A stretch of DNA of 23,927 nucleotides, from positions 1 through 23,927 of the IMG/VR virus record IMGVR_UViG_3300012928_000041; one strand, 5' to 3'. This DNA comes from a virus. Of this stretch, positions 5,001-23,927 are shown piece by piece (the first letter of the stretch is position 1; each line of letters opens with the position of its first letter). Both the position numbers and the translations under genes were made by a program. The notes under the pieces are model-generated. The model saw only the letters and a list, made by a program, of their open reading frames with translations, had not been told where the DNA came from and did not search any database.

Positions 5001-8000
5001 TCAAAAATCATGGATTTAATGATGGTGAGGTAGTAACATATTCTACAGATGGTACTAGTATTGGTGGTTTAGACACAAATCTGCAATATAAAATAATTAA
5101 ATTATCAGAAAATGAATTTAGACTTGCAAATGCAGGTGCAGCAGGTACAATTTCTGCAAATTATGATAGAAATAATTATGTAAATATAGTTTCTGCAGGA
5201 AGTAGTGAGCAGTTTTTTGCATATCCTCCAATAACTGTTACAGTAAATGCAGATATTATTGGTGGTGTAGGGGTAATTACTGCAACTCCTGTAATAAAAG
5301 GTTCAATATCTGACGTTTATTTGTATGATGCAGGAACTGGATATGGTTCAACAACAATTAATTTTCATAAAAAACCAGATATATTTGTAAAAACTGGTAA
5401 AAGTGCAGAATTTAAACCAATAATTGATGGTGGTAAAATAATAAATGTTCAAGTTACAAATACTGGTAGTGAATATACATCACCACCTGATTTAGAGGTA
5501 GTTGGTATTGGTTCTGGAACTGGTGCTAAATTGAGAGCAGTCGTTGAAAATCAAAAAGTAACTGATGTTGTTGTTCTCAATACAGGTATTGGATATACAT
5601 CTGCTACAACAACTATCAAGGTAACATCAAGAGGTTCTAATTCATCGCTAGAAGCGTCTGTAAGGCATCTTACTATCAATAATCATGAAAGACATGGAGA
5701 TGAGATTTTAATTGATACAGACGATGGTTTGCAGTATGGATTGGTTGGATATTCAACCGCTATTGGTTTATCTGAATTTGGTGATAATAGTATTGATCAC
5801 TCTCCTATTATTGGTTGGGCATATGATGGAAATCCCATTTATGGTCCTTATGGATACGATGATTCAACAAATAGTAACTCACAAATTAGAAATCTATCAC
5901 CAAGTTATGTTTTATCACCCTCTACTTTAGTTGATAGACCTTCAGGTTTTTCAAATGGGTTTTTTGTAGAAGATTTTGAATTTAACAATTCGGGTGATTT
6001 AGATAAACATAATGGTAGATATGGTAAGACACCTGAATATCCTAATGGAGTTTATGCGTATTTTGTAGGTATTAATACTAATACACAAACATCAATATTC
6101 CCACATTATATCGGAAATAGTTACAGATCCAAGTTAATTAATCAAGATGTAGATCAAGATTTTGATTTTAATAATTCAAATCTAACAAGAAATACTCTTC
6201 CATATTCAGTAGGTGATGTCGGTGCAGATAATGACTTTATTAATGAACCCAATGAAATATTACTTCAAAGTTCAACCATTGAATCTGTAACAAGAGGATC
6301 AGTACAAACGTTTGATATACATGAGGGAGGAGATAATTATAAAGTTGGTGATCTTGCAAAATTTGATAATACTGGAACAAATGGTGGCGGTATAAGTGCA
6401 TTTGTCGATTCGATTACAGGAAAAACTGTAGAAAATTTATCAACTACACTTGAGGATTATCAAAATGCGAATTTAGTATGGAACAAATCTGGTCAAGTTA
6501 TCATTAATACAAATAAACCACATACCTTATTAGATAATGATACTGTAGTAATATCTGGATTATCTACATTTATTCCAAAATTAACTGGAGAACATATCAT
6601 TGGAGTTTCTTCAGAAAAAACAAAATTAATATTAGATACTCCTGCGATCACTGTTGCAGGTATTGTAACTGATTTATTTGTATCAACTATTCCGAAAATA
6701 TCAGTTGGATCTACTATTGGTGTTGGAACTGCTAGATTATCAGTATTAAACATATTCCCAAATAGAAAAGTAATTCGTGCAATTACTGAGCACACAGCGG
6801 GTATTCATACAGCATCAACAGAAGTAATTGAAATTACTGATAAATTTACAATTCCATTAAAAACACCTTTCTTTGAATCAAAGATAGATGATAAAATATT
6901 TTTCAATCCTACGCAAGAACTTGGAATTGGTACTGTTTCTGGACAAAGTGGTATCTCAACTATCGTCATAGGAAATACACCAATACCAACATCAATACCC
7001 AATCAAACTATATTCATACCAAATCACCCTTTCAAACAAAACCAACAAGTTACACTAACCAAAGGTGGAAGCACTCGCATAGTTGTATCTAATACAGGTG
7101 ATAGTGCAACATTTAATATACCAGAAACGGGTGAAACACAAACATTATTTGTTATCAATAAATCAGACAATCATATTGGGTTGACCACACAGATTGGGTT
7201 AACCACTACTACTGATGGTTTATTCTTTAGATCATTTAATTCAAATAATAATGATACCGATTTTAAATATTCTATTGAATCTAATTTTACTCAAGAAGTT
7301 GCTAGAGTTGAAAAGATAAAATCAGTAATATCAATTTCAACTTCACATGGATTAGAGGAAGGTGATATTGTTAATCTGACTGTGAAACCAAAACAATCCT
7401 TGGGTGTAGGTTCATCAGAATCAATATTACTAAAATATAATTCAGAGAATGATAAAATTTTAGTAAATCCAATATCATTTGGTTCAACTGCAGTTAATTT
7501 AACAAAAAATGAATTTGAATTAACATCTCATGGATTTGAGACTGGTGAGAAAATATTCTATGATTCTAGTAACTTCATAAGTGGATTAGGCACTGGATCA
7601 TACTTTGTTCACAGACTTGATGATAATAAATTTAATCTATCACTAACAAGAAAGGATAGTTTTGCAGAACCACCTCTTATTATTGATTTACAATCTCAAG
7701 GTGGGTCACATGAGATTAGTAAGATAAATCCAATAATTCCTGTAATTAGAAATAATAATTTAGTCTTCGATACAAGTGACTCTTCACTAAATGGATACAA
7801 TCTTAAAATATTTTATGATGATAAATTTAATAACCAATTAATTTCAATTGGATCGACAAGTGGATTTAGTGTCGTAAGTTCTGGTAGCACAACAACTTTA
7901 TATTATAATGATTTACTACCAACAAAATTATATTATTCATTAGAAAAAGCAGGATTTATTAGCACTGCTGATACAGACGTTAAAAACTATTCAGAGATAA

Positions 8001-11000
8001 AATTTGAAGATAGTAGTTATAATGGATCATATAAGATATCTGGAGTTGGAAACACAACCTTCACGATATCTGTAAGTCAAAGACCTGAACAATTTTCATA
8101 TACAAAAACCTCATCTGATATATCTTACACAACAAAGTCATACGCAGCAGAGGGTGGTGTTGCATCATTAAATCTAACATTTGGTGGTGCTAATTACAAA
8201 AAATTACCTGAATTTGTAAGTATTGCATCAACAAATGGTATCAATGCAGACATAATTCCTGTATCAAAAACAGTTGGTAAAATAAATGAATTTACTATCA
8301 ATGATCAAGGTTTTGATTTTTCTGCAGATAAAACTTTAAATCCAGAAGTTTTCATATCTCCTAATATAACAGTTGTTGATCGTAATGAGGTTGAAAGTAT
8401 CGAAATTCTGGATGGTGGAAGAGGATATACATCTCCACCCGATCTTTCACTTGTAAATCCAGAGGATGGTACTAGGTATGATACTGGTGTATTGAAAGCA
8501 AAAATTCAAGGTTCATCAATAGATGAAATAGAAATTATTGAAACTCCAGTCGGTTTAAATGAGATAACTAATCTTGTTTTTGCAGAGAATGGAGATAATG
8601 GTATTGGAATTAACAGTTGTTTTAGTAATACAGCAGGTATAGTAACTTGTTTCTTAGCAACACCAATCGTGGGATTTACAGGAATACCATTTGCAGTTGG
8701 TGATAAGGTATTTGTGGAGGGTATTGTCAATATACTCGATGAGGGTGATGGATTTAATTCAGCAGATAACAAGTATAACTTCTTTGATGTCATCGCTTAT
8801 TCAAATACAAACCCTGCAAAGTTAGTATTTGATGCATCTCAATTTGTATCTGCAAATCCAGGTATTGCAGTAACTTCTCAAAACTCATTTGCATCTATAA
8901 TCAAGAAGTCAAATTATCCAATATTTAAAGTAACTCAAACATCAAGACCATTTAATATTGGTGAGAAAGTATTTACCAAAGAGGGTAGTAATTATGTTGA
9001 AAGAGACTTAGTAATTACTGAGAATTTAAATGATAATGTTAAAGTGTTTGGAACATATGAACTAAAAGTTGGTGATAAAATATTTGGTCAAAATTCTGGA
9101 ACTTTAGCTACAATTAAAATACTTAATGAAAATAGAGCTATATTTAAAGTTGATTATTCATTGAGAAAAGATACAGGATGGTCAGATGACACTGGCAAAT
9201 TGAATTTAGATTATCAGGTTTTACCAGATAATGATTACTATCAAAACTTATCATACACGATAAAAAGTAATCAAACTTATGATATTCTATCATCAACTGT
9301 TAATGGTTTACTACATCCAACTGGACTTAAAAATTTCTCAGATACAGGTATTACAAGTATTTCCCAAGTTAGAGTTGGTATTGGGTCAACCCTCCAATCA
9401 ACAAGCACTACAGGTTTAGATATTATTACTGAAAAGAGAGTTGATACTCTTAACTTCTTTGACGAAGGTGTAGATGTAGATACCCTTCCAGATGAAATTA
9501 ATCCAGTTAAATCAAAATTTATTAAATTTAATAATAGAAGATTATCCGATTTTATTGATTGTATTAGTAATAGAGTTCTTTCAATTGATGATTTTAGTTT
9601 ACAGTTTTCTAATGCAGGTTCAGTTGGATCAGATTTATTTGTTGATGCTCATGATTACAGTTTACTGGATGGTTATTCTAGATTTTTAGTTCAGGTAGTT
9701 GATCCTGCAGGTAGTGAAAGGCAAGCAACTGAAATAATTACTTTACCTTCACCTTCAGGTGACATAATTACATTTGAAAAAGGAACATTAGATAATAGAT
9801 CAGATCGTCAAATAGCTGATCTGGAGGGTAATTTATCTGATGGAAGTTTAAGTTTAAGATTCACTCCATTTGAAAAATTTAATACAGATTACGATATTAA
9901 AATTTTAAAAAATAAATTTAATTCTTCTGGTGTAGGATCTGACTCAATAAATGTTGGATTTGTTAATTTAATATCATCTAATCAAACAGTTAGTGCGTCA
10001 GAAACCTCAAACTTAGTTTATAGAGAGGTGGATAAAATTGAATCATTATTTGTTAATGCTGAGATGCTAAACACAAATACTGATGAGAGAACATATGCAG
10101 AAATCTTTATTGATCATGATGGCAGTGATACATTTACGTCTGAATTTTATTTTGATAATGATCCTAATGATAAACTATCGGATAGATTCATAGGAACATT
10201 TAGATCAAGTATAAATTCAGGTATTCTAACATTAGATTATGAAAATACAGATTCAGATGATGTAACTGTAAGAACAAAAATTGTTGGTTTTGGAACAACT
10301 TCAGTAGGAATAGGAACACATATCTTTAAAGCAACAGGGCAACCAGATGCATCAGTTAATACAGGAAGATTACAGACAAATTATGTTAGTATCGCATCTA
10401 CAGGAACAGTTTTTAGTGTTATTTCATCTGATGTATCAACAATAAAGGCAGTAGCAAAAGTAGGATATGGTAATAGTTCTGCTTTGCATCAATTCATTAT
10501 TATTAATGATCTAACGGATTCATATATTACACAATATCCATTTTTACCTGTAGGAGTAGGCAATACTTCAGGTATAGGAACATTCGGATCAGAATTTAAT
10601 GGTTCAAATCTTGATATCAAGTTCTACCCAGACTCAGGTGTATCAAATATTACTGTACAAACACATAGTGAAATACTCCAAATCAATAATGATATCTCAA
10701 ATACTCCGAATACTTTCACATATGGTGCTGTAGATGAAAATATATTTGTATCAGCATATAATGCTAGAAATGGAAATAGAGTTAACAGAACTGATTTTGA
10801 TATCAATCATCAAGGTGTACCAATATTCCAAAAATCATTTGATCCAGCAGTATCTTTAGATTTATCTACTGGAATATTCAATATCCCAAATCATTTCTTT
10901 AACACTGGTGAAAAATTAACTTATGCTTTTGGATCATCTTTCACTGGAATAAGTGCATCAAGTTTACAATCTGGTGGTAGTAATATACCAACAACATTAT

Positions 11001-14000
11001 ACGCTATTAATGTTGGAACATCAGAATTTAAAGTTGCAACTTCAAAAGCAAATGCAGAATCAGGGACAGCACTTACATTCTCCTCTGCTGGATCAGGTAA
11101 TTCTCATAGTTTAACTATGGATAAAAAATTATCAAAAGCGATAATTTCTATTGATGGTGTTGCACAAAGTCCAATCGCATTTACTAAACTTACTTATGAT
11201 CTTGAGGATAATTATGGATCAGTTGGTGCTGCTGAGACTGTGTTTGCCTTATCAGGTATTGGAACCATAGCAAGTGGCGATTTGCTTAAAGTGAATGATG
11301 AGTTCATGCGAGTGAATTTAGTTGGATTGGGCACCACTGCAGTAGGACCTATCACAGGAACTGGAACATTTAATCTAGTTGAAGTTGAGAGAGGTGTTGT
11401 GGGATCAGTAGCAGCATCTCATAATGATGGTGCCACTGCAAGAATTCATTTAGGTTCATATAATTTTGTTGGTAGTAAAATTCACTTTACAGAACCACCT
11501 TTAGGTAATAGTACAAGAGTCAATGATAGGCAAACATTGTTACCTGAACCAAGATCTACATTTGGAGGTAGAGTTTATTTAAGACAAGATTATGGTACAA
11601 ATAAAGTATTCGATAATATCAGTAAAGATTTTACAGGTATAGGTGCAACTTATACACTAACTGTTGCTGGTCTTAATACTACTGGAATAGAAACTGGAAG
11701 TGGAGTTCTATTCATAAATGATATCTTCCAAACACCAACAACTACAAATAATGCTGGTAATATTTACGATTTTGTTGAGGGTGCAACAGGTATCACAAGT
11801 GTAACATTTACTGGTATTACAGATGGTAGTAATAATCTTATCATATCAGATGAGGATGTAAATAAGAATCAACTTCCAAGAGGTGGTGTGATTGTCTCAC
11901 TAGGTTCAACTAATGGATTAGGATTTGCCCCATTAGCTGGAGCAGCAGTGACTGCAGTTAAGAATCAAAACGGAACGATCACTGCAGTGGGTATCGGAAC
12001 TGGTGATTTTCATGGTTCTGGTTATAGGGGAACAGTAGCAATAGGTGTTACAGACGTTGCTTATGAGCACAGATTTGAGAGTGCTGGTATCGGTTCAATC
12101 AGAAAGGGATCGTTTGCAGGTCCATCATATACAGCAACAAATGCTGTTTACACTTCATTCAGTGGTCAGTTTGTGATTACAATACCTGGACATAATCTAA
12201 CAACAAGTGATACAGTAGGTATTGATACTGGTGGAATAGTATTCAGATGTTCTAAGGATCATTTCAAAACCTTACATCCTTACCCACGTTCAGGTCCAAC
12301 ACCAACATCAACAAATGGAGATCCCATTGTTGGTATTCAAACTGCAATTACTGCAACCACAACGAATACAATCACAATTAATGTTGGTGCTGGTGGTGGT
12401 GCAGGAACTGGTGCAGTCGTAAATGCGACAGTGGGTGCAGGTGGAACTCTTACATTTTCAGTTGCTTCTGGTGGATCTGGTTATGTTCAACCACAAATTA
12501 ATATTCCACAACCATCATACGAAAATCTTGAAGTGGTTGGAGTTTCTAGACTTGGAGAAGGTGCTACAACTGAGACAGGTAGAAACTTATTAGTTAGTGT
12601 GGATGTTGGACCTGCAAATACAGTGGGTATTGGATCTACTCTTCATGAGGTAAAATCATTCAAGATCGCTAGACAAGGATATGGTTTTAGAAAAGGTGAT
12701 GTATTTAAACCTGTAGGTCTCGTAACTGATCGTGGTTTGGGATCTGTTGTTAATGACTTTGAATTAACTGTTCTTGAAACATTCACTGATTCATTTGCAT
12801 CATGGCAGTTTGGAGAATTAGATAATGTAGATTCAGTAAAGAATTTACAAAATGGAAAGAGAACTAGATTCCCCTTAGAGTTTAACAAGGAATTACTCAG
12901 TTTTGAAACAAGTAACCCCGAAATTGATTTAAACTCTGTTCTATTAATATTTGTTAATGGTGTGATACAAGAACCAGGCAAACATTATCAGTTTGATGGT
13001 GGAACATCATTTACATTCAGTGAAGCACCTGATGAAGATGATAAAGTTGATATATTCTTCTACAGGGGAACTCGTGGAACCGATAGTGTTTTTGTTAACA
13101 CAATAGAGACTGTGAAGAAAGGTGATATACTCACATTAAATAAAAATGATAGGTTCTCTAACACATTATCACAAGATCCAAGAACAATTTACAATATAAC
13201 CACATCAGACAAGGTAGAAACTAATTTATATACTGGATTAGGTATAAGCACAGTTCCAAAACCAATTAGTTGGACAAAACAAAAGGTTGATAAAGAAATT
13301 GCTGGTGAATTTGTATCTAAAGCAAGAGATTCTATTGAACCACTTGTATTCCCAACTGCAAGGATCATTAGTGATCTATCAATATCAGGAACTGAGATAT
13401 TCTTAGATAATGGAAAGTTATTTGATTATGAAGTGGGAAGTCCTATAAACATAGATGCTTTGATAGTTAATACAACTAGTGATCCAATCGCTGCTGCAAT
13501 TACCGCAACTGTTTCTGCTGCAGGAACAATTAGTGCGTTGACCATAGGTGATGGAGGATCTGGATACACTGGATCCACTGTGAATGTAAAAATATCTGCT
13601 CCTAGTTCAATCGGTGTAGGGGTGGGCACAACCGCATCAGCAACCTTAAATGTTGTGAATGGTGCTCTATCAGGAACCGCAAATATAACTAATCCTGGTC
13701 TTGGATATACTCATTCAACCCCACCACAGGTGATAACTGCTCTACCTTCAGTATCATTTGAAAATATTATCAATGCAGGAATTGCGACTGGATTCTCAGG
13801 TATAATAACTGGTATTCAGACAACAACAGGTGTAGGTGGTAATCCTCTTGCACTTGAGTTCTTTATATCAAATCCAAGTGTATCAGCGTTATCAGCTAAT
13901 GATAGAATATTTGTATCAGATACTGAAACTGGTTTCGGAATCACATCTATTGATGGTCATGATGCATCAATTGTTGGAATTGGAACAACATTCTTAAATA

Positions 14001-14284
14001 ATGTTTATAAAATAGATGCTTTTTCAAGAGTAGCAAACGTAGGTATAATTACTTGCAATATACTTTCAACCACTAGTGTGGTGGGTATTGCTACTACTGG
14101 TACGACATTTAATCCAGTTGGAACTTTATCATTTGGTAAAATATCTGGATTTACAAGATCAGGTTCCCCAATATCAATCGGTGTAACTGGTTTTACTATA
14201 AATTCAGGACTCTCAACCTTCCCAACATTACAGAGACGAGGGACAGGTTTGAGGGATACTGGTGGATTATCTAAATCACTCTAG
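2099..14284 (+). CDS. Giant YHYH-domain baseplate protein in the gp7 position (4061 aa)
   Basis: This 4061-residue ORF lies exactly between gp6 and gp8, where T4 encodes gp7 (about 1030 aa), the wedge initiator. I see no clear sequence likeness to T4 gp7, so the role comes from synteny and from an N-terminus (about 1-260) with an FYEAKGTEESFKILFKVLYG motif, as in gp7/gpI-type marine phage tail proteins. After that the protein is almost wholly beta-rich, Gly/Ser/Thr/Asn-rich modules: a YHYH-like domain near 1195-1345; GxGY repeats near 1068-1180, 2023-2121 and 3810-3883; H-x-[FL]-centred repeats at about nine sites between 607 and 3365; a YYQ/HPTG module near 2369-2415; a YPRS module near 3349-3432; and a conserved block near 3474-3700 with IFVNGVIQEPGKHY. 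There is no signal peptide or obvious enzyme motif. It is likely a virion baseplate protein with peripheral, possibly receptor-facing, extensions. The reading frame is continuous over 12.2 kb. Confidence 0.85.
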   Translation: MIQTGFEKRVQVQQILANQLPDFLRAESPKTLDFLKQYYISQEHQSGATDLADNLDQYLKLDNLTPEVITGETTLYSDISSSTDSVQVYTTKGFPNEYGLFKIDNEIFTYTGVTTNTFTGVIRGFSGISSYRTNLDQEELLFEETKADEHDAGSQVKNLSVNFLKEFYKKLKFTLTPGLEDVNFVSDLDVNNFIKGSRAFYEAKGTEESFKILFKVLYGEVPKIVDLEQFLPKPSSAEFLRREIVVAERISGDPDKLVGQTIKKASDLETQASVSEVEIFTRSGISTYFKLGLFVGFDDRDLIEGTFEIQPKTSNINPVSVGSSVITVDSTVGFGTTGTLLSGDNIITYSSKTVNQFLGCVGVDNAMSIKSPIRTDDVFFGYENGDTDKKVEIRITGVLSDVETVGDVLSVTEGEKIYVKNVGEKIKNPETNKSQKQIFANSWIYNTSSRFFVDNTNNGYNLVSAPDKSALKEGDIVDILIGSSEVVAHSDAIVKTINEKQVTLDTGGLFSPSATNIQYSLRRKLETVKSSGAPLKFGNDLITADIQNVYTEGEKNYYVASSSLPSYTLTKNLDQAIILSLVPTNLQEFDTNKLKFSVLVFDKDVPFKTGEEVIYTAENNTLVGLEDSVSYFIKVLDDKKKIQLYRSRSLIDADNSTNPTREYFSAPSSSGFHKFTLVSQKTQFIHPQKLLRKFPFNFDLKTGEDTQTAPGALGMLINGVEVINYKSDDKIYYGPLESVRLYNGGENFDVVNLPSITIEAGLSTALIQPVVKGKLVDVLIDPQDFDVKKVSSVTISGGNSSGTVLKAQLEERHRTLSFDGRQTTLGGGIDVVNDNVTFPVSHNLISGDELIYNRNGNVAIGVGVRETAYQDGINLITGLTLNDGAVYVAEVVNNKTINLYETLADFSAGINTVGFTTAETSGIHKFRTKKANNTISKISIIDAGTEFENRKLIVQPTGVSTAHDTIFFKNHGFNDGEVVTYSTDGTSIGGLDTNLQYKIIKLSENEFRLANAGAAGTISANYDRNNYVNIVSAGSSEQFFAYPPITVTVNADIIGGVGVITATPVIKGSISDVYLYDAGTGYGSTTINFHKKPDIFVKTGKSAEFKPIIDGGKIINVQVTNTGSEYTSPPDLEVVGIGSGTGAKLRAVVENQKVTDVVVLNTGIGYTSATTTIKVTSRGSNSSLEASVRHLTINNHERHGDEILIDTDDGLQYGLVGYSTAIGLSEFGDNSIDHSPIIGWAYDGNPIYGPYGYDDSTNSNSQIRNLSPSYVLSPSTLVDRPSGFSNGFFVEDFEFNNSGDLDKHNGRYGKTPEYPNGVYAYFVGINTNTQTSIFPHYIGNSYRSKLINQDVDQDFDFNNSNLTRNTLPYSVGDVGADNDFINEPNEILLQSSTIESVTRGSVQTFDIHEGGDNYKVGDLAKFDNTGTNGGGISAFVDSITGKTVENLSTTLEDYQNANLVWNKSGQVIINTNKPHTLLDNDTVVISGLSTFIPKLTGEHIIGVSSEKTKLILDTPAITVAGIVTDLFVSTIPKISVGSTIGVGTARLSVLNIFPNRKVIRAITEHTAGIHTASTEVIEITDKFTIPLKTPFFESKIDDKIFFNPTQELGIGTVSGQSGISTIVIGNTPIPTSIPNQTIFIPNHPFKQNQQVTLTKGGSTRIVVSNTGDSATFNIPETGETQTLFVINKSDNHIGLTTQIGLTTTTDGLFFRSFNSNNNDTDFKYSIESNFTQEVARVEKIKSVISISTSHGLEEGDIVNLTVKPKQSLGVGSSESILLKYNSENDKILVNPISFGSTAVNLTKNEFELTSHGFETGEKIFYDSSNFISGLGTGSYFVHRLDDNKFNLSLTRKDSFAEPPLIIDLQSQGGSHEISKINPIIPVIRNNNLVFDTSDSSLNGYNLKIFYDDKFNNQLISIGSTSGFSVVSSGSTTTLYYNDLLPTKLYYSLEKAGFISTADTDVKNYSEIKFEDSSYNGSYKISGVGNTTFTISVSQRPEQFSYTKTSSDISYTTKSYAAEGGVASLNLTFGGANYKKLPEFVSIASTNGINADIIPVSKTVGKINEFTINDQGFDFSADKTLNPEVFISPNITVVDRNEVESIEILDGGRGYTSPPDLSLVNPEDGTRYDTGVLKAKIQGSSIDEIEIIETPVGLNEITNLVFAENGDNGIGINSCFSNTAGIVTCFLATPIVGFTGIPFAVGDKVFVEGIVNILDEGDGFNSADNKYNFFDVIAYSNTNPAKLVFDASQFVSANPGIAVTSQNSFASIIKKSNYPIFKVTQTSRPFNIGEKVFTKEGSNYVERDLVITENLNDNVKVFGTYELKVGDKIFGQNSGTLATIKILNENRAIFKVDYSLRKDTGWSDDTGKLNLDYQVLPDNDYYQNLSYTIKSNQTYDILSSTVNGLLHPTGLKNFSDTGITSISQVRVGIGSTLQSTSTTGLDIITEKRVDTLNFFDEGVDVDTLPDEINPVKSKFIKFNNRRLSDFIDCISNRVLSIDDFSLQFSNAGSVGSDLFVDAHDYSLLDGYSRFLVQVVDPAGSERQATEIITLPSPSGDIITFEKGTLDNRSDRQIADLEGNLSDGSLSLRFTPFEKFNTDYDIKILKNKFNSSGVGSDSINVGFVNLISSNQTVSASETSNLVYREVDKIESLFVNAEMLNTNTDERTYAEIFIDHDGSDTFTSEFYFDNDPNDKLSDRFIGTFRSSINSGILTLDYENTDSDDVTVRTKIVGFGTTSVGIGTHIFKATGQPDASVNTGRLQTNYVSIASTGTVFSVISSDVSTIKAVAKVGYGNSSALHQFIIINDLTDSYITQYPFLPVGVGNTSGIGTFGSEFNGSNLDIKFYPDSGVSNITVQTHSEILQINNDISNTPNTFTYGAVDENIFVSAYNARNGNRVNRTDFDINHQGVPIFQKSFDPAVSLDLSTGIFNIPNHFFNTGEKLTYAFGSSFTGISASSLQSGGSNIPTTLYAINVGTSEFKVATSKANAESGTALTFSSAGSGNSHSLTMDKKLSKAIISIDGVAQSPIAFTKLTYDLEDNYGSVGAAETVFALSGIGTIASGDLLKVNDEFMRVNLVGLGTTAVGPITGTGTFNLVEVERGVVGSVAASHNDGATARIHLGSYNFVGSKIHFTEPPLGNSTRVNDRQTLLPEPRSTFGGRVYLRQDYGTNKVFDNISKDFTGIGATYTLTVAGLNTTGIETGSGVLFINDIFQTPTTTNNAGNIYDFVEGATGITSVTFTGITDGSNNLIISDEDVNKNQLPRGGVIVSLGSTNGLGFAPLAGAAVTAVKNQNGTITAVGIGTGDFHGSGYRGTVAIGVTDVAYEHRFESAGIGSIRKGSFAGPSYTATNAVYTSFSGQFVITIPGHNLTTSDTVGIDTGGIVFRCSKDHFKTLHPYPRSGPTPTSTNGDPIVGIQTAITATTTNTITINVGAGGGAGTGAVVNATVGAGGTLTFSVASGGSGYVQPQINIPQPSYENLEVVGVSRLGEGATTETGRNLLVSVDVGPANTVGIGSTLHEVKSFKIARQGYGFRKGDVFKPVGLVTDRGLGSVVNDFELTVLETFTDSFASWQFGELDNVDSVKNLQNGKRTRFPLEFNKELLSFETSNPEIDLNSVLLIFVNGVIQEPGKHYQFDGGTSFTFSEAPDEDDKVDIFFYRGTRGTDSVFVNTIETVKKGDILTLNKNDRFSNTLSQDPRTIYNITTSDKVETNLYTGLGISTVPKPISWTKQKVDKEIAGEFVSKARDSIEPLVFPTARIISDLSISGTEIFLDNGKLFDYEVGSPINIDALIVNTTSDPIAAAITATVSAAGTISALTIGDGGSGYTGSTVNVKISAPSSIGVGVGTTASATLNVVNGALSGTANITNPGLGYTHSTPPQVITALPSVSFENIINAGIATGFSGIITGIQTTTGVGGNPLALEFFISNPSVSALSANDRIFVSDTETGFGITSIDGHDASIVGIGTTFLNNVYKIDAFSRVANVGIITCNILSTTSVVGIATTGTTFNPVGTLSFGKISGFTRSGSPISIGVTGFTINSGLSTFPTLQRRGTGLRDTGGLSKSL
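5300..5641 (+). repeat. Three tandem GxGY-type repeat units in the giant protein
   Basis: Three consecutive units align at the protein level: ISDVYLYDAGTGYGST (Tyr1082), IINVQVTNTGSEYTSPP (Tyr1126) and VTDVVVLNTGIGYTSA (Tyr1166). Spacing between the tyrosines is 44 then 40 residues. Each has the form beta strand, turn with Gly, [GE]Y, then a proline/serine-rich strand and a G-S-G-A-like turn. The pattern suggests a repetitive beta solenoid or beta sandwich. Copies recur elsewhere in this protein and in the two downstream proteins. Confidence 0.75.
5681..6133 (+). other. YHYH-like domain within the giant baseplate protein
   Basis: Residues about 1195-1345 carry the signatures of the YHYH family (PF14240): PIIGWAYDGNPIYGPYG at 1236-1252, and DLDKHNGRYGKTPEYPNG leading to VYAYF at 1318-1322. 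In typical members this last site reads close to YHYH; here both histidines are replaced (Y-A-Y-F). Large cyanophage baseplate proteins are known to carry YHYH domains. The domain's function is not established. The assignment rests on motif recognition only. Confidence 0.8.
8165..8463 (+). repeat. Second GxGY-type repeat cluster in the giant protein
   Basis: Three degenerate units occur in order: SLNLTFGGANYKKLPEF, INEFTINDQGFDFSADK, and VESIEILDGGRGYTSPPDLS. The last closely matches the unit at 1114-1134 (TNTGSEYTSPPDLEV), sharing YTSPPDL. The other two have aromatic substitutions at the Tyr site. This is the same module family as at 5300-5641. Confidence 0.6.
12518..13180 (+). other. Conserved C-terminal block with an NGxxQ tail-protein module
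   Basis: Residues about 3474-3690 look less repetitive and more conserved in style than their surroundings. They hold YENLEVVGVSRLG, VGIGSTLHEVKSFKI, QGYGFRKGDVFKPVGLVTD, then SVLLIFVNGVIQEPGKHYQF (3614-3633) and DKVDIFFYRGTRG (about 3648-3660). The IFVNGVIQ plus hydrophobic strand arrangement recurs in many phage tail proteins, including a FNGILQE segment of T4 gp10. I recall similar blocks in cyanophage structural proteins. This may be a defined assembly domain. Confidence 0.5.
13526..13748 (+). repeat. C-terminal GxGY-type repeat pair in the giant protein
   Basis: Two units, ISALTIGDGGSGYTGSTVNV and GTANITNPGLGYTHSTPPQV, lie near residues 3811-3883. They are separated by a low-complexity SSIGVGVGTTASATL stretch. 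They are the best matches to the module consensus (G-G-S-G-Y-T) in this protein and resemble the copies in the gp8 and DUF4815 proteins downstream. Confidence 0.65.
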
Positions 14285-15876: not shown

Positions 15877-18800
15877 ATGCCTCAGAAAACGAATCTAAAT
15901 ATAAATCCATTTTTCGATGATTTCGATAAAAATGATAATTTTTATCGTGTGCTATTTAAACCTGGTTTTCCAGTTCAGGCAAGAGAATTAACGCAGTTAC
16001 AGTCAATACTGCAAAATCAGATAGAGTCATTCGGAAGTCACATATTTAAAGAGGGATCAATGGTGATTCCTGGTAATATTAACTATAATGATGAGTATAA
16101 TTCTGTTAAAATAAATCCTGACCATTTAGGTATAGATGTAACTGTATATAAGGATCAATTAAAGGGAAAGAGATTAAGAGGTCAATCAACTGGTATTGTC
16201 GCTGTAGTTAATGATTGTTATACTCCTGCAGACTCATCTCAATACACTGATGTTACTTTATATGTAAAATATACACAATCAGGCACAGATAATACAATCG
16301 CTAGTTTTGAAGATGGTGAAGTTCTAATTACTGAGGATACGTTTACTTACGGAAATACAACTATATCCTCTGGTGAAACGGTAGCAACACTAATTTCTGA
16401 AAATGCAACAGCGATTGGATCACTCGCATCTGTTGGACAAGGTGTATTTTTTATAAGAGGGACGTTTGTTGATGTTGAAACAAGTGATATTATCTTAGAT
16501 CCATATACTAATTCACCATCATATAGAGTTGGATTAACAGTTCTAGAGGAGATTGTATCTGCTAAAGATGACAAGTCACTGTATGATAATGCTAAAGGAT
16601 TTTCAAATTTTGCAGCACCAGGTGCAGATAGATTAAAGATTACTGCTACATTATCGAAGAAAGCACTTAATGATTATGATGATAAATCATTTGTTGAGTT
16701 GATGAGAATTGAAAATGGAGAGATACTAAAATTACAAAACAAATCTAATTATAATTTAATACGAGATTATTTTGCAAAAAGAACTTTTGATGAGTCAGGT
16801 AATTATTCATTAGAAAATTTTGATGTAGAGGTAAAAGAGTTATTAAACAATCGTGAATCAAATGAGGGTGTATATTTTGAAGGACAACAAACATCTCAGG
16901 GTAATCTACCATCAGAAGATTTAATGGCAGTAAAAGTATCAGCAGGTACTGCTTATGTGAGAGGATATGATATAGAAACTATTGGAACAACAGTAATAGA
17001 TGTTGAAAAACCAAGAGATGTTGAAAAAATAGATGCATCTCAAGTTCCATTTGAATTTGGAACAAGATTTAAATTAAATAATGTTCATGGTACACCTGAA
17101 ATAAAAGTAGGATCAGCTTTAACGGTTGACTTATATGATAAAAGAAGAGGTTCTGGAACAGGATCTAATGGAACAAAAATAGGTACAGCAAGAGTTTACA
17201 CTCACAATTTAGCAGATGCACCATATGCTAACGCATCCACTGAGCATGATTTGTATGTATATGATGTTCAAACATTCACAAATCTTAGAATCAATCTAGC
17301 ATTAAGTCCATTGCAATGTCCTGCAACCTCATTTGTAAAAGGTTTAAGTAGCGGTGCTACTGGATTTGTTGAAACCACAGTAAGTAATACCACTGCTGTA
17401 CAATTAACACAAACTTCAGGAACATTTATTACAGGTGAGCAAATTATTATCAATGGAGATGATTCTTTAGTTAGATCAATTCAAGATTTAAAAATTAACA
17501 GTATTCGTGATGTAAAATCTGTCCACCAACCAACCAGTGGTCTATCAGGATTTAACGTTCATTTTGGGGGAGACGTTGTTTTACAAAAAACTCAATTAAA
17601 AGGTTTAAGCATTGGAGATCAAGTTCAAATCGCCACAAATGGTGTAGTAACTAGTCCAAAGGCAAAAATAATTTCCAGTTTAAAGGTTGGAGATATAATT
17701 AAATATCCAGTCGCTGGTCAAGCAGTTGAGAGTTTCAATAGAGTTGAAAGTGTGGGTGTTACAACTGCTAAGGTTGAAGCGGTTCAAGATGTAACTAATG
17801 TTTGTGAGGGTGGATTGCCTGGTAGCAATGTTCTTACAAATATTACAGTTGGATCACCTGTTGTGTCTGAAAACGGTGGATTATTTGCTAAAATAGATGA
17901 TAGTAACATATCTACACTTAATCTAGGATCTTCAAATTTACTTGTTACAAAACAAATTACAGGACAATCAACAAACGCAACCACAGGTGAATTAAATATC
18001 TCAGTAAGCAATGCAAATGTTGGTTTATCTAGTGCACTATTTGAGACCTTTGATGCTGAGAGATATTATGTTTCTTATGCTAATGGTGATATAGAAGATC
18101 TAACATCAGATCAGGTAACTTTAGTTAATGGTGGTGATACTGTTAAATTTACTGGTTTAACAATAAACCAATCTAACGTTGTTGTAAATACGACTGCTAA
18201 AAAACTTGGAATTGTTAATAAAAAGAAAGAATTTATAAGAAGTGAAAAAATATCTGTTAATGGAACAGTATCAGCTGCATCTACAGCAGTTAGTGGATTA
18301 AGTACAAGCACATTTTTTGGAACAAGAGTTGAAGATAATTCCATCTCACTCAACCTTCCAGATGTTGTTGAAATAGTTGGTATTTATGAGTCATTAGATA
18401 AATCTGCACCCACACTTGATTCAATAACACTTCCAACAGGTTTAAACTTAGATACTTCTTCAATACTTGGTGAAAAGGTAATTGGATCTACTAGTGGTGC
18501 GGTTGCTCAAGTTGTTACTAGATCATCATCCACTAAAGTAGAAATATCTTATCTTAATTCATCAAAATTTTCTGTTGGTGAGATAGTTACTTTTGAAGAG
18601 TCAAAAATTACATCAACTGTTCAGGTTGTAAATAGTGGTAATTTCCAAGATATTACACAAGAATATATTTTAGATAAAGGTCAAAGAAATCAGTTTTATG
18701 ATTATTCTCGAATTGTAAGAAAAAGAGGTTACATACCCTCAAGACAACTTCTTGTAATATTTAATTGGTTCGATGTCCCAAGTGATGATACTGGAGATGC

Positions 18801-21800
18801 ATTTACTGTGGATTCATATCCTGCAGATTCATTTAAAAGTGACATTCCTATATTACCTTCTGGTGTAAGGGCATCAGATACACTTGATTTTAGACCTAGA
18901 GTACAACGATTTACAGCAACAAATGCTTCACCATTTGCCTTTTCAAGTAGAAATTTTGACTCATCAACTAATCCAAGTTTAATAGTAACTCCACAGGAAA
19001 GTTCCTTGATTGGATATGAATATTATCTTCCAAGAATTGATAAAGTTGTTATAGGGAAAAATGGTGTAATTAGTGTTATTAAAGGTGTATCATCAGAAAA
19101 CCCTAAAGTACCAATTAATGTTGAAGACGCAATGGATATTGCAACCATTGAACTTCCAGCATACCTTTATAACACAGATGATGCGAAGATTACTGTCGTA
19201 GATAATCGTAGATACACGATGAGAGATATAGGTAAACTTGAGGATAGAATTGAAAATCTTGAAGTTGTCACCTCACTCTCTTTATTAGAACTTGATACTA
19301 AAACTTTCCAAGTAAGAGACGTAGATAATCTTGATAGATTCAAGTCAGGTTTCTTTGTGGATGACTTTAAAGATACGATTCGTCAAGACAAATCTACCAC
19401 AGGAAGCACATTAACTGATGTTGGGGAATTTGCTACTCCTATTGATTTTTATTCGATATCACCTGAACCTGCACTCGAACCATCTATTAATACAGACACT
19501 GCAGACTTTAAAGCAAATCTTGAACTATTAGATTCAAATGTTCAAAAAACAGGTGATAATATTACGTTGAGATATGAAGAAGTTGATTATATTGAGCAAC
19601 CACTAGCTTCAAGAGTTGAAAATGTAAACCCATTCAATATGATTGATTTTACAGGTACAATCTTGCTAGATCCATCATCAGATTCTTGGGTTAGAAACAT
19701 CTATGTTGATGGAGGCACAAGGAGAATCACTGGTGGATTTGATGGAACATTTATTGAATCAATTAAAACTTCAAGTGCTCCCGATACACACATAAGATCA
19801 AGAAACGTTGCTTTTGAAGCAAATGGTCTTAGACCTTTGGGTAGACAATATGCATTCTTTGATAATTCAAGTGGTCTTGATATTATTCCAAAATTGATTC
19901 AAATAACCATGACTTCGGGATCATTTGTGATTGGTGAAACTGTGAAAGGTTTTGTTGGATCATCACATTTGTTTAGTGCAAGAGTATATGCTCCCAATCA
20001 TAAAACTGGTCCTGGTGCAAGTCCCACAACAACTTATAGTTTAAACCCTTATGATAGGAGTGTTGAATTACCATCAGTTTATTCAGCATCTTCGACTATA
20101 TTGAATATTGATGTAAATTCTTTGGTAGATGAAGTTTTAGGAAAGTATTTTGGATTTGTGACTGAGGGAATGATTTTACTAGGAGAAACTAGTGGTTCTC
20201 AGGCAACTATTTCAAGTTTACAACTGATACCTGATACATTTGGTGATTTATCAGGATCATTCTTCTTTAGAGATCCATTTAGTAATCCCTTACCACCTTT
20301 AAGATTTACTGTTGGTACAAAAACATTTAAACTAACTTCTAGTGAAACAAATGCAGAAAGATTGAAAGGTAGTTTAATCATAAGTTCTGCAGAAACAACA
20401 TACGAAGCAAACGGTATTGTAGATACTATAACTCAAACAGAAGTTATTGTTAGAAGACCACCACCACCCGATGATTGTGATCCACTTGCACAGTCATTTA
20501 CTGTTGATGAAAAGAAAAATCCAAATGGTGTATTTGTAACAGCAGTTGATCTTTTCTTTGCAAATGTAGATCCAAGTCAGAAAGTAAGAGTTCAAATAAG
20601 AACTGTAGAGTTAGGAACTCCGACTCTTAAACTTGCAGAGGATCATGCACAAGTTGATATTGAACCAAATCAAATTATAGATGCTGATGGAGTATCAACT
20701 GATGGTACAAAACCATTTAAGGTTGTATTCTCATCACCTGTTTATCTAAGTGCACAGAGAGAATATGCGATAGTTGTTCTATCACCTCAATCAAATCTTT
20801 ATGAAATGTGGATTGCAAGGATGGGTGAAAGAACAGTCAATACAACAACATTACCTGATGCTGAGAGTGTTCTAGTTACCAAACAATATGTTGGTGGTAG
20901 TTTGTTCAAGTCACAGAATGGAACTATTTGGACTGCAAGTCAGTTTGAAGATATGAAGTTCAAACTTTATAAGTGTGATTTCAATTTAACACCAGGAAAT
21001 GCATTCTTCTACAATCCAAAACAGGTTTTAGATAGCAATTCATCAATCCTCCCTGTTGACCCAATAAAAACATTACCACGTAAATTGAAGGTTGTTATTA
21101 GTAATACCACTGTGATGAATAATATTCTAATACCTGGTGCAAAAGTAAGTGATGAAACAGCATCAACAGCGGTTACAGGTATTGTTGAAAATGCAGGTGG
21201 AACAGCAAGTGCGATGACTAAGACCAATGTTGGTGTTGGTTACTCACAAGGAACTTATGCTAATGTTCCTTTGTATAATATTACAGGATCTGGATCAGGT
21301 GCTAGTGCAACAATTGTAATAAACGCCCAAGGTAAAATTGATTCTGATCCATCAAGTATAAGTGGTGGAAGTGGTTATGTGCAAGGTGATGTGCTAGGAT
21401 TAACTACTAGCACTATGGTGAAAGGTTCGGATGCACAGATAACTGTTACGGGATTATCAAATAGAAACACACTTTATCTAACAAATGTACAAGGTCAAGA
21501 ATTTACTGCGGGTCGCCCTCTTGTTGTATACAATGGTAGTAGTGCTGTGGCTATGGCTGGTACTACTATTACAAGTTCAGTTGTCATAAATGATTTATTT
21601 GAAGGAAATGTAATTGAAGTAGGACAATTCAGTCATGGTATGCATGCTGATAATAATGTATTATCATTATCAGGAATTAAACCAAATACATCACCAACCA
21701 GTTTAAGTGCAACATTGGGTATTAACGACACAAGCGTATCTGTAGCAGATACAACAGGATTTAATTTCCAAAATGGTGTTCATACTAATGAAGGATTTGC

Positions 21801-22941
21801 ACTAATTAATGGTGAAATTATTTTCTACAATTCAATCACTGCAGGTGTAGCACCAGCAGGAACTTTAGGTATCTCATCAAGAGGTGTTGATTCCATACAA
21901 CGTTCACATGATGTTAATACACAAGTATTCCCATATGAATTAAATGGTGTATCATTGAATAGGATTAATACAACTCATTCATTACCATCAAGTGGTCTTC
22001 TCAAGTCTGAGAGAGATTTGGATAGATATCATTTACAAATACCTAGAGGTGATCTAGCAACAGGTGATAATCAATTAAGTTTTTCTGATGAGAATCAAGT
22101 TGGAGGTTCTGAAGCAAAAGGCACAAGAAACATCCAATTTAACACTATCACACCTACATTTAATGTTATTACTCCTGGTGAAGGAACAACAATATCTGGT
22201 CAGGTAAGAACTGTATCGGGTACAAGTGCTAGTGGATCTGAAGTATCATTCCTCGATCAAGGTTTTGAAGATGTTGCAATTAACAATTTAAATAATTTAA
22301 CAACTCCTAGAATACTTGCATCTGAAAGAAATGAAACAACAAGACTCACAACTTTACCAAAAAATAAATCTCTAACCGTAGGTTTAACTTTGAGTTCATC
22401 ATCATCAGATGTTTCTCCAAGAGTGAACGTGGTAAACGGAACAGCAATTATCTTAGGTAGAAACCGTCTAAACAATCCTATAACTGATTATGCATTTGAT
22501 GGAAGAGTAAATCTTGAAGAGGATGATCCTCATGCATCAACTTACGTCAGTAATAAAGTTAACTTGAAACAACCAGCCACATCGCTGAAAGTTTTAATAG
22601 GATCATTTAGACACTCATCTGCAGACTTTAGAGTTTTATACAAATTAACTCGTACAGATTCAAACAATGTTGAGCAGACATTTGAACTATTTCCTGGTTT
22701 TGATAACCTTAGAGATACTGATGGTGATGGATTTGGTGACGATGTTATTAGTGTAAATAATAACAATGGAAGACCAGATGCCTTTGTTGGATCAAGTTCT
22801 GATGGTGAGTTTAGAGAATATCAATTTAGTGTTGATGAACTTGAACAGTTTACAGGATTCCAAATTAAAATTGTTATGAGTGGAACTAATGAAGCAAAAG
22901 CACCTCGTTTCAAAGATCTAAGAGTTATTGCACTAGCATAA
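15877..22941 (+). CDS. DUF4815-type large structural protein (2354 aa)
   Basis: The N-terminus (NINPFFDDFDKNDNFYRVLF, then PGFPVQARELTQLQSILQNQ, then HIFKEGSMVIPG) is a hallmark of DUF4815 (PF16075) structural proteins of marine T4-like phages. Further blocks are GQRNQFYDYSRI near residues 935-947 and RRYTMRDIGKLEDRIENLE at 1111-1129, likely a short coiled coil, followed by DRFKSGFFVDDF. Downstream lie extra modules: repeated GE/SGA-type units, a GxGY unit near 1783-1849, and a GF/RG unit near 1941-2021. Near the C-terminus DTDGDGFGDD (2280-2289) resembles a calcium-binding loop; the protein ends RVIALA. Its position after gp8 corresponds to T4 gp9/gp10, so it may be a peripheral baseplate or fibre-attachment protein, but I see no direct gp9 or gp10 similarity. 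The stop TAA is followed in frame by TGA and overlaps the next start (TAATG). Confidence 0.85.
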   Translation: MPQKTNLNINPFFDDFDKNDNFYRVLFKPGFPVQARELTQLQSILQNQIESFGSHIFKEGSMVIPGNINYNDEYNSVKINPDHLGIDVTVYKDQLKGKRLRGQSTGIVAVVNDCYTPADSSQYTDVTLYVKYTQSGTDNTIASFEDGEVLITEDTFTYGNTTISSGETVATLISENATAIGSLASVGQGVFFIRGTFVDVETSDIILDPYTNSPSYRVGLTVLEEIVSAKDDKSLYDNAKGFSNFAAPGADRLKITATLSKKALNDYDDKSFVELMRIENGEILKLQNKSNYNLIRDYFAKRTFDESGNYSLENFDVEVKELLNNRESNEGVYFEGQQTSQGNLPSEDLMAVKVSAGTAYVRGYDIETIGTTVIDVEKPRDVEKIDASQVPFEFGTRFKLNNVHGTPEIKVGSALTVDLYDKRRGSGTGSNGTKIGTARVYTHNLADAPYANASTEHDLYVYDVQTFTNLRINLALSPLQCPATSFVKGLSSGATGFVETTVSNTTAVQLTQTSGTFITGEQIIINGDDSLVRSIQDLKINSIRDVKSVHQPTSGLSGFNVHFGGDVVLQKTQLKGLSIGDQVQIATNGVVTSPKAKIISSLKVGDIIKYPVAGQAVESFNRVESVGVTTAKVEAVQDVTNVCEGGLPGSNVLTNITVGSPVVSENGGLFAKIDDSNISTLNLGSSNLLVTKQITGQSTNATTGELNISVSNANVGLSSALFETFDAERYYVSYANGDIEDLTSDQVTLVNGGDTVKFTGLTINQSNVVVNTTAKKLGIVNKKKEFIRSEKISVNGTVSAASTAVSGLSTSTFFGTRVEDNSISLNLPDVVEIVGIYESLDKSAPTLDSITLPTGLNLDTSSILGEKVIGSTSGAVAQVVTRSSSTKVEISYLNSSKFSVGEIVTFEESKITSTVQVVNSGNFQDITQEYILDKGQRNQFYDYSRIVRKRGYIPSRQLLVIFNWFDVPSDDTGDAFTVDSYPADSFKSDIPILPSGVRASDTLDFRPRVQRFTATNASPFAFSSRNFDSSTNPSLIVTPQESSLIGYEYYLPRIDKVVIGKNGVISVIKGVSSENPKVPINVEDAMDIATIELPAYLYNTDDAKITVVDNRRYTMRDIGKLEDRIENLEVVTSLSLLELDTKTFQVRDVDNLDRFKSGFFVDDFKDTIRQDKSTTGSTLTDVGEFATPIDFYSISPEPALEPSINTDTADFKANLELLDSNVQKTGDNITLRYEEVDYIEQPLASRVENVNPFNMIDFTGTILLDPSSDSWVRNIYVDGGTRRITGGFDGTFIESIKTSSAPDTHIRSRNVAFEANGLRPLGRQYAFFDNSSGLDIIPKLIQITMTSGSFVIGETVKGFVGSSHLFSARVYAPNHKTGPGASPTTTYSLNPYDRSVELPSVYSASSTILNIDVNSLVDEVLGKYFGFVTEGMILLGETSGSQATISSLQLIPDTFGDLSGSFFFRDPFSNPLPPLRFTVGTKTFKLTSSETNAERLKGSLIISSAETTYEANGIVDTITQTEVIVRRPPPPDDCDPLAQSFTVDEKKNPNGVFVTAVDLFFANVDPSQKVRVQIRTVELGTPTLKLAEDHAQVDIEPNQIIDADGVSTDGTKPFKVVFSSPVYLSAQREYAIVVLSPQSNLYEMWIARMGERTVNTTTLPDAESVLVTKQYVGGSLFKSQNGTIWTASQFEDMKFKLYKCDFNLTPGNAFFYNPKQVLDSNSSILPVDPIKTLPRKLKVVISNTTVMNNILIPGAKVSDETASTAVTGIVENAGGTASAMTKTNVGVGYSQGTYANVPLYNITGSGSGASATIVINAQGKIDSDPSSISGGSGYVQGDVLGLTTSTMVKGSDAQITVTGLSNRNTLYLTNVQGQEFTAGRPLVVYNGSSAVAMAGTTITSSVVINDLFEGNVIEVGQFSHGMHADNNVLSLSGIKPNTSPTSLSATLGINDTSVSVADTTGFNFQNGVHTNEGFALINGEIIFYNSITAGVAPAGTLGISSRGVDSIQRSHDVNTQVFPYELNGVSLNRINTTHSLPSSGLLKSERDLDRYHLQIPRGDLATGDNQLSFSDENQVGGSEAKGTRNIQFNTITPTFNVITPGEGTTISGQVRTVSGTSASGSEVSFLDQGFEDVAINNLNNLTTPRILASERNETTRLTTLPKNKSLTVGLTLSSSSSDVSPRVNVVNGTAIILGRNRLNNPITDYAFDGRVNLEEDDPHASTYVSNKVNLKQPATSLKVLIGSFRHSSADFRVLYKLTRTDSNNVEQTFELFPGFDNLRDTDGDGFGDDVISVNNNNGRPDAFVGSSSDGEFREYQFSVDELEQFTGFQIKIVMSGTNEAKAPRFKDLRVIALA
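21223..21420 (+). repeat. GxGY repeat pair in the DUF4815 protein
   Basis: TNVGVGYSQGTYANVPLYNI and SSISGGSGYVQGDVLGL are separated by a GSGSGASATIVINAQG linker, the same turn-strand pattern as in the gp7-position protein and gp8. The two tyrosines are about 40 residues apart, the same period as in the upstream arrays. Confidence 0.65.
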
Positions 22942-23027
22942 TGAAAAAACATATTCCTTTAAGTTTCGTTCCAAAAATATTCTGGTGTGCTCTCTTTTTG
23001 AGCATATCAGTGAGTGTGGTATCATGA
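22941..23027 (+). CDS. Small hydrophobic peptide, 28 aa, unknown function
   Basis: A 28-codon ORF exactly fills the space between the DUF4815 gene and the next gene. Its ATG (22941-22943) shares a base with the upstream stop (TAATG), and its TGA (23025-23027) overlaps the downstream start as ATGA. It begins MKKHIPLS and then has a hydrophobic run, IFWCALFLSISVSVVS, to the end. The basic N-terminus plus a hydrophobic segment of about 16-20 residues suggests a single-pass membrane peptide or a signal-anchor-like peptide. There is no lipobox. There is no obvious Shine-Dalgarno, so translation would depend on coupling to the neighbours. I do not recognise a family. The perfect tiling supports a real gene, but the short length means chance cannot be excluded. 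Confidence 0.6.
   Translation: MKKHIPLSFVPKIFWCALFLSISVSVVS
22982..23010 (+). other. Strong RNA hairpin within the small-peptide ORF
   Basis: Bases 22982-22992 (CTGGTGTGCTC) pair with 23000-23010 (GAGCATATCAG). This gives an 11-bp stem with two G-U pairs and a 7-base loop, TCTTTTT. The stem ends 13 bases before the ATG of the next gene. No U-tract follows, so it is not a standard intrinsic terminator. It could influence coupling, ribosome access or RNA processing, or simply reflect the codons of the hydrophobic peptide. Confidence 0.45.
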
Positions 23028-23653
23028 AAACCTTTAAAGAATTTATTTTCAAACTTATTGAGATTGAAGAATCAAGAGCATCCAAAACTACTACCAGAAT
23101 GAAGGATGGTAGGATTATTAGTATTAGTAAAAAGGATATTGGAACCTCTGCTCAATATAATAGAGATGTAATTAATAAACTCCCTTCCTTGGGTGGTGAA
23201 AAAATACAGGTTGATGCTGGTGGTAAGGTTCCAGATATAGGAAAATTTTATAATGATATAAGTCAAAGATATACTGGTAAAAAAATAGATCCAAATAAAA
23301 TTAATAGGAATATACCAGGAACTAGAGCGAATGATTTGAAAAATATTGAAAAAAGTATAAATGAAGATGAATCTAAAAATCCTTATTTAGATAGTAAAGG
23401 TAGAGATAAAGGTGGTGTATATGGTCAAAATCCACCTATCCCCAAGGGATATCCAAGAGGAATAATGGATTCAGATGATGTAAAACTGAAAAATAAATAT
23501 TTCAGGGAAAAGGATGTGATGGATTATTTTAGAAACCAAGGTAATAAAATTAAACAAACATTTGAGACATCCAAAGGTCCAATAACAAAAGAATATTCTA
23601 ATCCATTTGTAAATCAAAAAGCAAGTCAAAGTAAGAGATTACCAGCAGGATGA
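23024..23653 (+). CDS. Hypothetical protein with MKTFKEF N-terminus (209 aa), possible internal head protein
   Basis: I chose the ATG at 23024 over the in-frame GTG at 22985: it gives the N-terminus MKTFKEFIFKLIEIEES, overlaps the small-peptide stop as ATGA, and matches the MKTFKQF start of the following gene. The rest is hydrophilic and Lys/Asp/Asn/Gly-rich with no membrane segment, and contains motifs such as NPPIPKGYPRGIMDSDDV (about 142-159). I do not recognise a domain. The first seven residues resemble the capsid-targeting sequence of T4 internal proteins (MKTYQEF). LIE at 11-13 and IEE at 14-16 fit the (L/I)-x-E consensus of the gp21 prohead protease. A packaged, processed head protein is therefore plausible but inferred. 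The stop overlaps the next start (ATGA). Confidence 0.75.
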   Translation: MKTFKEFIFKLIEIEESRASKTTTRMKDGRIISISKKDIGTSAQYNRDVINKLPSLGGEKIQVDAGGKVPDIGKFYNDISQRYTGKKIDPNKINRNIPGTRANDLKNIEKSINEDESKNPYLDSKGRDKGGVYGQNPPIPKGYPRGIMDSDDVKLKNKYFREKDVMDYFRNQGNKIKQTFETSKGPITKEYSNPFVNQKASQSKRLPAG

Positions 23654-23850
23654 AAACATTTAAACAGTTCATGGAGAACATAGCACCTAAGATGCTAGAG
23701 ACAAAACCAGATCCATTAGTCGGACTTCCTCAAATTAGGACTCCTGATGTTATAAAACAGGGTGCTGATAAATTTAGAAAAGATACTGGTTTTAATCTTC
23801 CTATTCCTTTAGTTAAAAAGAAAGTAAAATCTAAAACAAAATCAGCATGA
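23650..23850 (+). CDS. Small basic hypothetical protein with MKTFKQF N-terminus (66 aa)
   Basis: This is a 66-residue ORF overlapping both neighbours by four bases (ATGA at 23650 and at 23847), so translation is probably coupled. It begins MKTFKQFMENIAPKMLE, very close to the start of the preceding protein and to the T4 capsid-targeting sequence. The middle is proline-containing (KPDPLVGLPQIRTPDVIKQG). The C-terminus is strongly basic (LVKKKVKSKTKSA), suitable for nucleic-acid contact. I recall many small cyanophage proteins with this kind of N-terminus. The possible gp21 site here (FME at 7-9 or MLE at 15-17) is a weaker match than in its neighbour. No known domain is seen. Confidence 0.75.
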   Translation: MKTFKQFMENIAPKMLETKPDPLVGLPQIRTPDVIKQGADKFRKDTGFNLPIPLVKKKVKSKTKSA

Positions 23851-23927
23851 TACCAGTAGAGGGACATAAACATCTATACCGTGAAGAATCAGGTGCGATT
23901 GTGAACACTGATACAAATGGTTATGCA
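23847..23927 (+). CDS. Small phage protein, N-terminal 27 residues (3' truncated)
   Basis: An ATG overlapping the previous stop (ATGA) opens a frame that runs to the window end without a stop. It begins MIPVEGHKHLYREESGAIVN and continues TDTNGYA. I recall short, uncharacterised proteins with an MIPVEGxxxLYRD start and a GAIxN motif in T4-like marine phages, so this is likely real although only the start is visible. Function is unknown. Confidence 0.65.
   Translation, partial: MIPVEGHKHLYREESGAIVNTDTNGYA

Follow-up and report, generated by a model that had tools for sequence, protein, structure and literature searches.

The adjacent genes P0001 and P0002 most probably (about 0.8 by our estimate) encode internal head proteins of a T4-like marine phage related to P-SSM2, which would be packaged in the head, trimmed by a protease and delivered into the host. 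The window, meaning the whole stretch of DNA analyzed here, is a complete virus record of 23,927 bases. As originally predicted, it holds two adjacent open reading frames (ORFs) that begin with MKTFKEF and MKTFKQF. Their features, and those of the bordering genes, are as follows (a slash within a motif marks a predicted cut or module border).

15877–22941, + strand: large virion gene of 2354 aa with the C-terminal sequence ...KDLRVIALA, bounding the cargo slot on the left; counterpart of P-SSM2 T4-GC109, with order and C-terminus kept in P-SSM2 and relatives.
23024–23653, + strand: P0001, tagged protein of 209 aa (tag, module A, module B), starting MKTFKEFIFKLIEIEESRAS; from the ORF list.
23024–23044, + strand: capsid-targeting-like tag MKTFKEF of P0001, equal to residues 1–7 of T4 IPI.
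23054–23071, + strand: predicted prohead-protease sites LIE(13) and IEE(16) in P0001, with IEE/SRAS at the module A border.
23072–23365, + strand: P0001 module A, residues 17–114, common to a 400-aa protein of locus L003 and weakly to PSSM2_125 of P-SSM2.
23357–23365, + strand: predicted internal prohead-protease site INE(114)/DESKNPY in P0001, at the border between modules A and B.
23366–23650, + strand: P0001 module B, residues 115–209, found elsewhere as an independent protein that bears an MKTFQQFME-type tag of its own.
23650–23850, + strand: P0002, tagged basic protein of 66 aa, starting MKTFKQFMENIAPKM; from the ORF list.
23650–23676, + strand: P0002 tag MKTFKQF-ME, in which F7-M8-E9 is a probable non-canonical cut site; F7 and E9 are invariant in an alignment of 11 relatives.
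23847–23927, + strand: beginning of the T4-GC112 virion structural protein (phrog_473, 1.3e-8), truncated where the window ends and bounding the cargo slot on the right.

The P0001 and P0002 genes overlap by an ATGA stop/start. Both products are hydrophilic, with basic pI values of 9.8 and 10.2, and P0002 has the expected Lys-rich C-terminus, ...LVKKKVKSKTKSA. BLASTP aligned the two significantly at residues 1–8 only, so their likeness is not that of a whole-gene duplication. P0001 could also start at a GTG 39 bases further upstream, but homologues have the tag at an ATG. Searches of both bodies against Pfam and PHROGs found no function, nor did a PDB sequence search with P0001; a SAM lyase assignment for P0001 was ruled out, as neither protein matches Pfam, PF23780 included. 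The predicted structure of P0001 is poor (pLDDT 52), and a comparison of the module B model (pLDDT 69) with PDB and viral libraries gave no fold matches at E ≤ 0.001.

IPI, IPII and IPIII are known internal head proteins of T4, and together with 61.1 they are the four T4 ORFs matching MKT[FY]x[EQ]F. Serving as the positive control, the T4 internal proteins have the start, with its aromatic residue 4 and Phe 7, that is present in both P0001 and P0002. The T4 start cited in the original prediction, MKTYQEF, is correct for IPII and IPIII (MKTYQEFIAE) and incorrect for IPI, which begins with MKTFKEF and is identical to P0001 over this stretch; 61.1 begins MKTFKEFIKED. In the capsid targeting sequence (CTS) of T4 IPIII, residues 4 and 7 chiefly target, processing depends on residues 8 and 10, gp21 cleaves after L/I-x-E, and Asp at position 10 stops processing while targeting is still allowed (PMC9026906, review). 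T-even internal proteins are diverse defence proteins with only the CTS in common (PMC3012670).

The window proteins and their relatives resemble this T4 set in several respects, with the seven-residue start of IPI in P0001, retention of Phe/Tyr-4 and Phe-7, small basic bodies that differ freely, and an xxE soon after the tag in many members. They differ in belonging to marine phages, in the F-x-E9 of the P0002 type where T4 has I-x-E10, in P0001 looking like a precursor of two modules that has an additional internal site, and in location, the tagged genes occupying a slot between virion genes whereas those for the T4 internal proteins lie near lysozyme or tRNA genes. The sole other T4 ORF with the same tag, 61.1 (54 aa; NC_000866 18966-19130), carries a full MKTFKEFIKE beside the primase gene and looks like a further T4 internal-protein candidate. 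No sequence relation was seen between it and the bodies of P0001 and P0002; judged by eye, the Gly/Pro-rich, Lys-rich tails of the tagged metagenomic proteins L018 and L127 resemble it.

The motif is short and the genomes are AT-rich, features that would favor a chance or low-complexity likeness, or plain gene duplication, with a functionless N-terminus. The controls refute this explanation and leave it a negligible probability. The window contains exactly two matches to the tag motif and none to the control motifs. Across IMG/VR, MKTFK[EQ]F occurs in at least 120 stretches and MKTFKQF alone in at least 599, as against 49 matches for the permuted motif MKFT[EQ]KF and 22 in the whole collection for MTFKK[EQ]F. 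The second permutation was run because the first is partly spoiled by gp6, whose own start resembles MKFT[EQ]KF and which is present in the loci of 31 of those 49 matches. Synonymous codons in the tag vary freely, placing conservation at the protein level, and 150 tagged bodies, taken past residue 14, fall into 87 clusters with no mutual similarity at E ≤ 1e-3. A few motif matches are probably not cargo: an HK97-type capsid protein Pfam model appears among the matches and was assigned to L072 by reading its sequence, where the motif is probably coincidental. A tblastn search with a query of joined tags was biased towards IPIII and was left out of the evidence. From these comparisons, the proposal that the tag would target P0001 and P0002 to the head is well supported.

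Cleavage is predicted with differing strength for the two proteins. The residues following the tag were assessed in 153 distinct ORFs starting MK[TS][FY]x[EQ]F, drawn from fetched loci of which ten were obtained via homology to P0002; the seed motif fixes positions 4 (F/Y) and 7 (F) by choice and leaves positions 8 onward free. Glu occupies position 9 or 10 in 83% of these ORFs, compared with a background Glu frequency of 5.8%, and the commonest residues are I at 8 and E at 10. An [LI]xE lies within residues 6–20 in 41% of the tagged ORFs and in 5.6% of control stretches, and 90 of the 153 have no [LI]xE whose E falls at residues 9–20; most of the P0002 family is likewise without [LI]xE. In P0001, the LIE and IEE named in the original prediction are present at E13 and E16, and an INE at E114 makes a third site. 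P0002 has no [LI]xE in its 66 aa, only F-M-E, so the expected L/I-x-E shortly past the tag was found after one of the window's two tags. With F7-x-E9 in its place, P0002 is classed as CTS-like and not as a canonical T4-type CTS-bearing internal protein.

The architecture of P0001 bears on these sites, since E16 and E114 fall exactly at its module borders, IEE/SRAS and INE/DESKNPY. The 400-aa L003 protein has its own MKTYRQF tag and a C-terminal half corresponding to P0001 from residue 14 onward, and its single [LI]xE site, LKE/SRAS, stands at the same border as IEE/SRAS in P0001. A further 14 relatives match only residues 110–209 of P0001; all 14 are short and carry their own tag, with F[MQ]E/DQSKNPF. 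When the module-B sequences are aligned, I-N-E114 of P0001 falls opposite F7-x-E9 of the short tags, which suggests F-x-E as the cut site in short tags. A comparable arrangement is seen in a second family, in which the body GAAWTKK follows three leaders ending in E, namely MKTFKEFQE, MKTFKQFCIDLDE and WRDDFEFVNE, the last inside PSSM2_123. P0001 therefore looks, by its sequence, like a two-module precursor; its predicted cleavage is supported, and that of P0002 is uncertain.

Separately, at L223:15914-16729 and 17174-19165 (PSSM2_123, PSSM2_125), three internal WR[DE][DE][FL]-type stretches are each followed by hydrophobic-x-E. These stretches (SWRDDFEFVNE, NWREEFSINE and SWRDELDLQE), none of which is expected in shuffles, may represent the head-targeting and cleavage element in an internal form.

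The same residues bear on an explanation in which the tag targets proteins to the head with neither cleavage nor injection, the proteins being parts of the core or scaffold that either remain in the capsid or leave it. The P0002 type, which has no [LI]xE, is compatible with it, as is the separation of targeting from processing by Asp-10 in T4 (PMC9026906), and basic, low-complexity bodies would also fit DNA condensation. The prevalence of Glu at positions 9 and 10 and the placement of [LI]xE at module borders argue against it, and tagged enzyme cargo is hard to reconcile with a scaffold. We consider this explanation unlikely.

The location of the genes, beside baseplate genes, had been described as odd. 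The window runs from gp6 through a 4061-aa ORF, gp8, the 2354-aa virion gene, P0001 and P0002 to the start of the phrog_473 virion structural protein, and the same order is found in Prochlorococcus phage P-SSM2 (gp7, gp8, T4-GC109, GC110, GC111, GC112); among named relatives, the gp8 of P-SSM2 is closest to that of the window, at 60% identity. In both P-SSM2 and S-PM2, GC112 carries a virion structural protein annotation. P0001 and P0002 thus sit in an accessory slot flanked by two conserved virion genes, and their position is not odd. The 4061-aa ORF (window 2099-14284) lies at the gp7 place of P-SSM2 and apparently contains many repeat-like segments. A promoter and terminator scan gave no signal above chance.

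In P-SSM2, the slot holds PSSM2_114 (MRTFQEFLQLCE...) followed by PSSM2_115 (MKSFKQFLEEA...), both tagged and mutually unrelated; Pfam assigns PSSM2_114 to the SAM lyases (PF23780, 8.9e-8, passing the curated threshold). The pair is like P0001 and P0002 in slot, order and tags (MRTFQEF-LQLCE, MKSFKQF-LEE), and its bodies are unrelated to theirs. Over 11 genomes with occupied slots, the tag is present on 16 of the 20 ORFs, a proportion biased by the fetching of most loci via homology to tagged proteins, P-SSM2 being independent. The slot is empty, with the border virion genes abutting, in S-SRM01, S-SKS1, S-CAM9, S-PM2, MED4-213, S-CRM01 and S-SSM6a, and in P-SSM7 it holds one 98-aa gene without the tag. 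A conserved 87-aa gene without the tag (MIFFSLILSFFANHLPVMYVQVPQW...) also recurs in this slot (L011:6216-6479, L284:4434-4697, L285:4634-4897). Elsewhere, tagged genes occur in tandem, in runs of five (L009:70-1669) and four (L083:6505-9422), the L009 run being directly upstream of a gene resembling a large terminase.

Such neighborhoods raise the alternative that the N-terminus is an assembly tag for the neck, tail or baseplate: baseplate, neck and terminase genes are nearby, and T4-like morphogenesis genes are present in 54 of 120 motif loci among the matches listed. Only morphogenesis genes are quoted here because T4-like homology counted over whole loci does not separate motif from control loci. 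Against this alternative, the start of P0001 is that of a T4 protein internal to the head, IPI, and tagged genes also occur far from tail genes, by the primase in T4 (61.1) and near nucleotide metabolism in P-SSM2. We judge it highly improbable, and head targeting remains the preferred reading.

Cultured marine relatives carry variants of the tag. The strict MKT[FY]x[EQ]F is absent from six isolates (P-SSM2, Syn9, HTVC008M, S-PM2, S-SM1 and KVP40), indicating that the form of the tag varies by lineage. Starts keeping F4, F7 and E10, mostly MKSFxxFLxE, number 12 in 14 T4-like genomes, against none for the reversed pattern; the examples checked in S-SRM01, S-CAM9 and S-CRM01 coincide with annotated starts of genes, among them an acetyltransferase in S-CRM01. 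The cytidylyltransferase T4-GC190 begins MKSFSQFLTE in P-SSM2, MKKFSAFLNE in its S-SM1 orthologue and MKSFFQFLFE in S-SKS1 (by N-terminal match). Sullivan et al. (2010, PMC3037559) report T4-GC190 among the virion proteins of S-SM1, 41 in number, detected by mass spectrometry. This is the sole experimental anchor for a tagged marine protein here, and it differs from P0001 and P0002 in being a large enzyme from another genome region, its S-SM1 tag departing from that of P0001 at positions 3, 5 and 6. gp21 and gp22 are annotated in the relative S-SM1; the 24-kb window record stops short of that region. Taken with the unrelated bodies, the retained residues 4 and 7, the [LI]xE at P0001 domain borders and the tagged slots of P-SSM2 and relatives, the virion report favors the original capsid-targeting reading, which falls short at P0002, where the strict [LI]xE is missing.

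We propose that MKTFK[EQ]F, like the capsid targeting sequence of T4, would dock onto the core of the prohead, and that a gp21-type protease would then remove the tag after x-x-E. P0001 may additionally be cut at E114, where site and module border coincide, freeing two basic modules. The products would remain with the DNA and enter the host, most likely for an early anti-defence action, as cargo with the same tag elsewhere suggests. By analogy with T4 and with that cargo, injection and an early, perhaps anti-defence, role of P0001 and P0002 are likely. The accessory slot between two conserved virion genes would be a place where tagged cargo is swapped.

Pfam matches among representatives of the tagged clusters include S-adenosylmethionine lyase, ART-PolyVal, cytidylyltransferase-like, GNAT and lytic-transglycosylase, none of which is matched by the P0001 or P0002 bodies. 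The largest tagged body cluster (L032-L124, for example L048:1441-2151) has 19 members by single linkage, with one small other family chained in; it is mostly SAM-lyase-like, with a variable spacing from tag to ESSLSR. SAM lyases are a class first found in T3, where they counter restriction-modification (PMC7877911). L097:6037-6813 encodes a tagged ADP-ribosyltransferase (ART-PolyVal, 9.7e-24) reminiscent of T4 Alt.

Detailed study of head-packaged, injected effectors has centered on T-even phages, together with a few giant phages. No earlier description of the tag in marine phages was found in the literature searched, chiefly the main texts of papers outside subscription. Marine T4-like phages could, with the evidence evenly poised, share a lineage-wide system of swappable protein delivery, with a head-targeting tag on dozens of cargo families (SAM lyases, ADP-ribosyltransferases, nucleotidyltransferases, acetyltransferases and basic proteins of no known function), partly in accessory slots, and with some cargo precursors cut in the capsid before injection. 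Tagged cargo already includes SAM lyases and a polyvalent-type ADP-ribosyltransferase recalling T4 Alt. If the tag reads alike in ocean T4-like phages, a seven-residue start would predict virion cargo from raw sequence; such cargo would reach the host at the very onset of infection, and many genes now called 'hypothetical' would gain a testable role.
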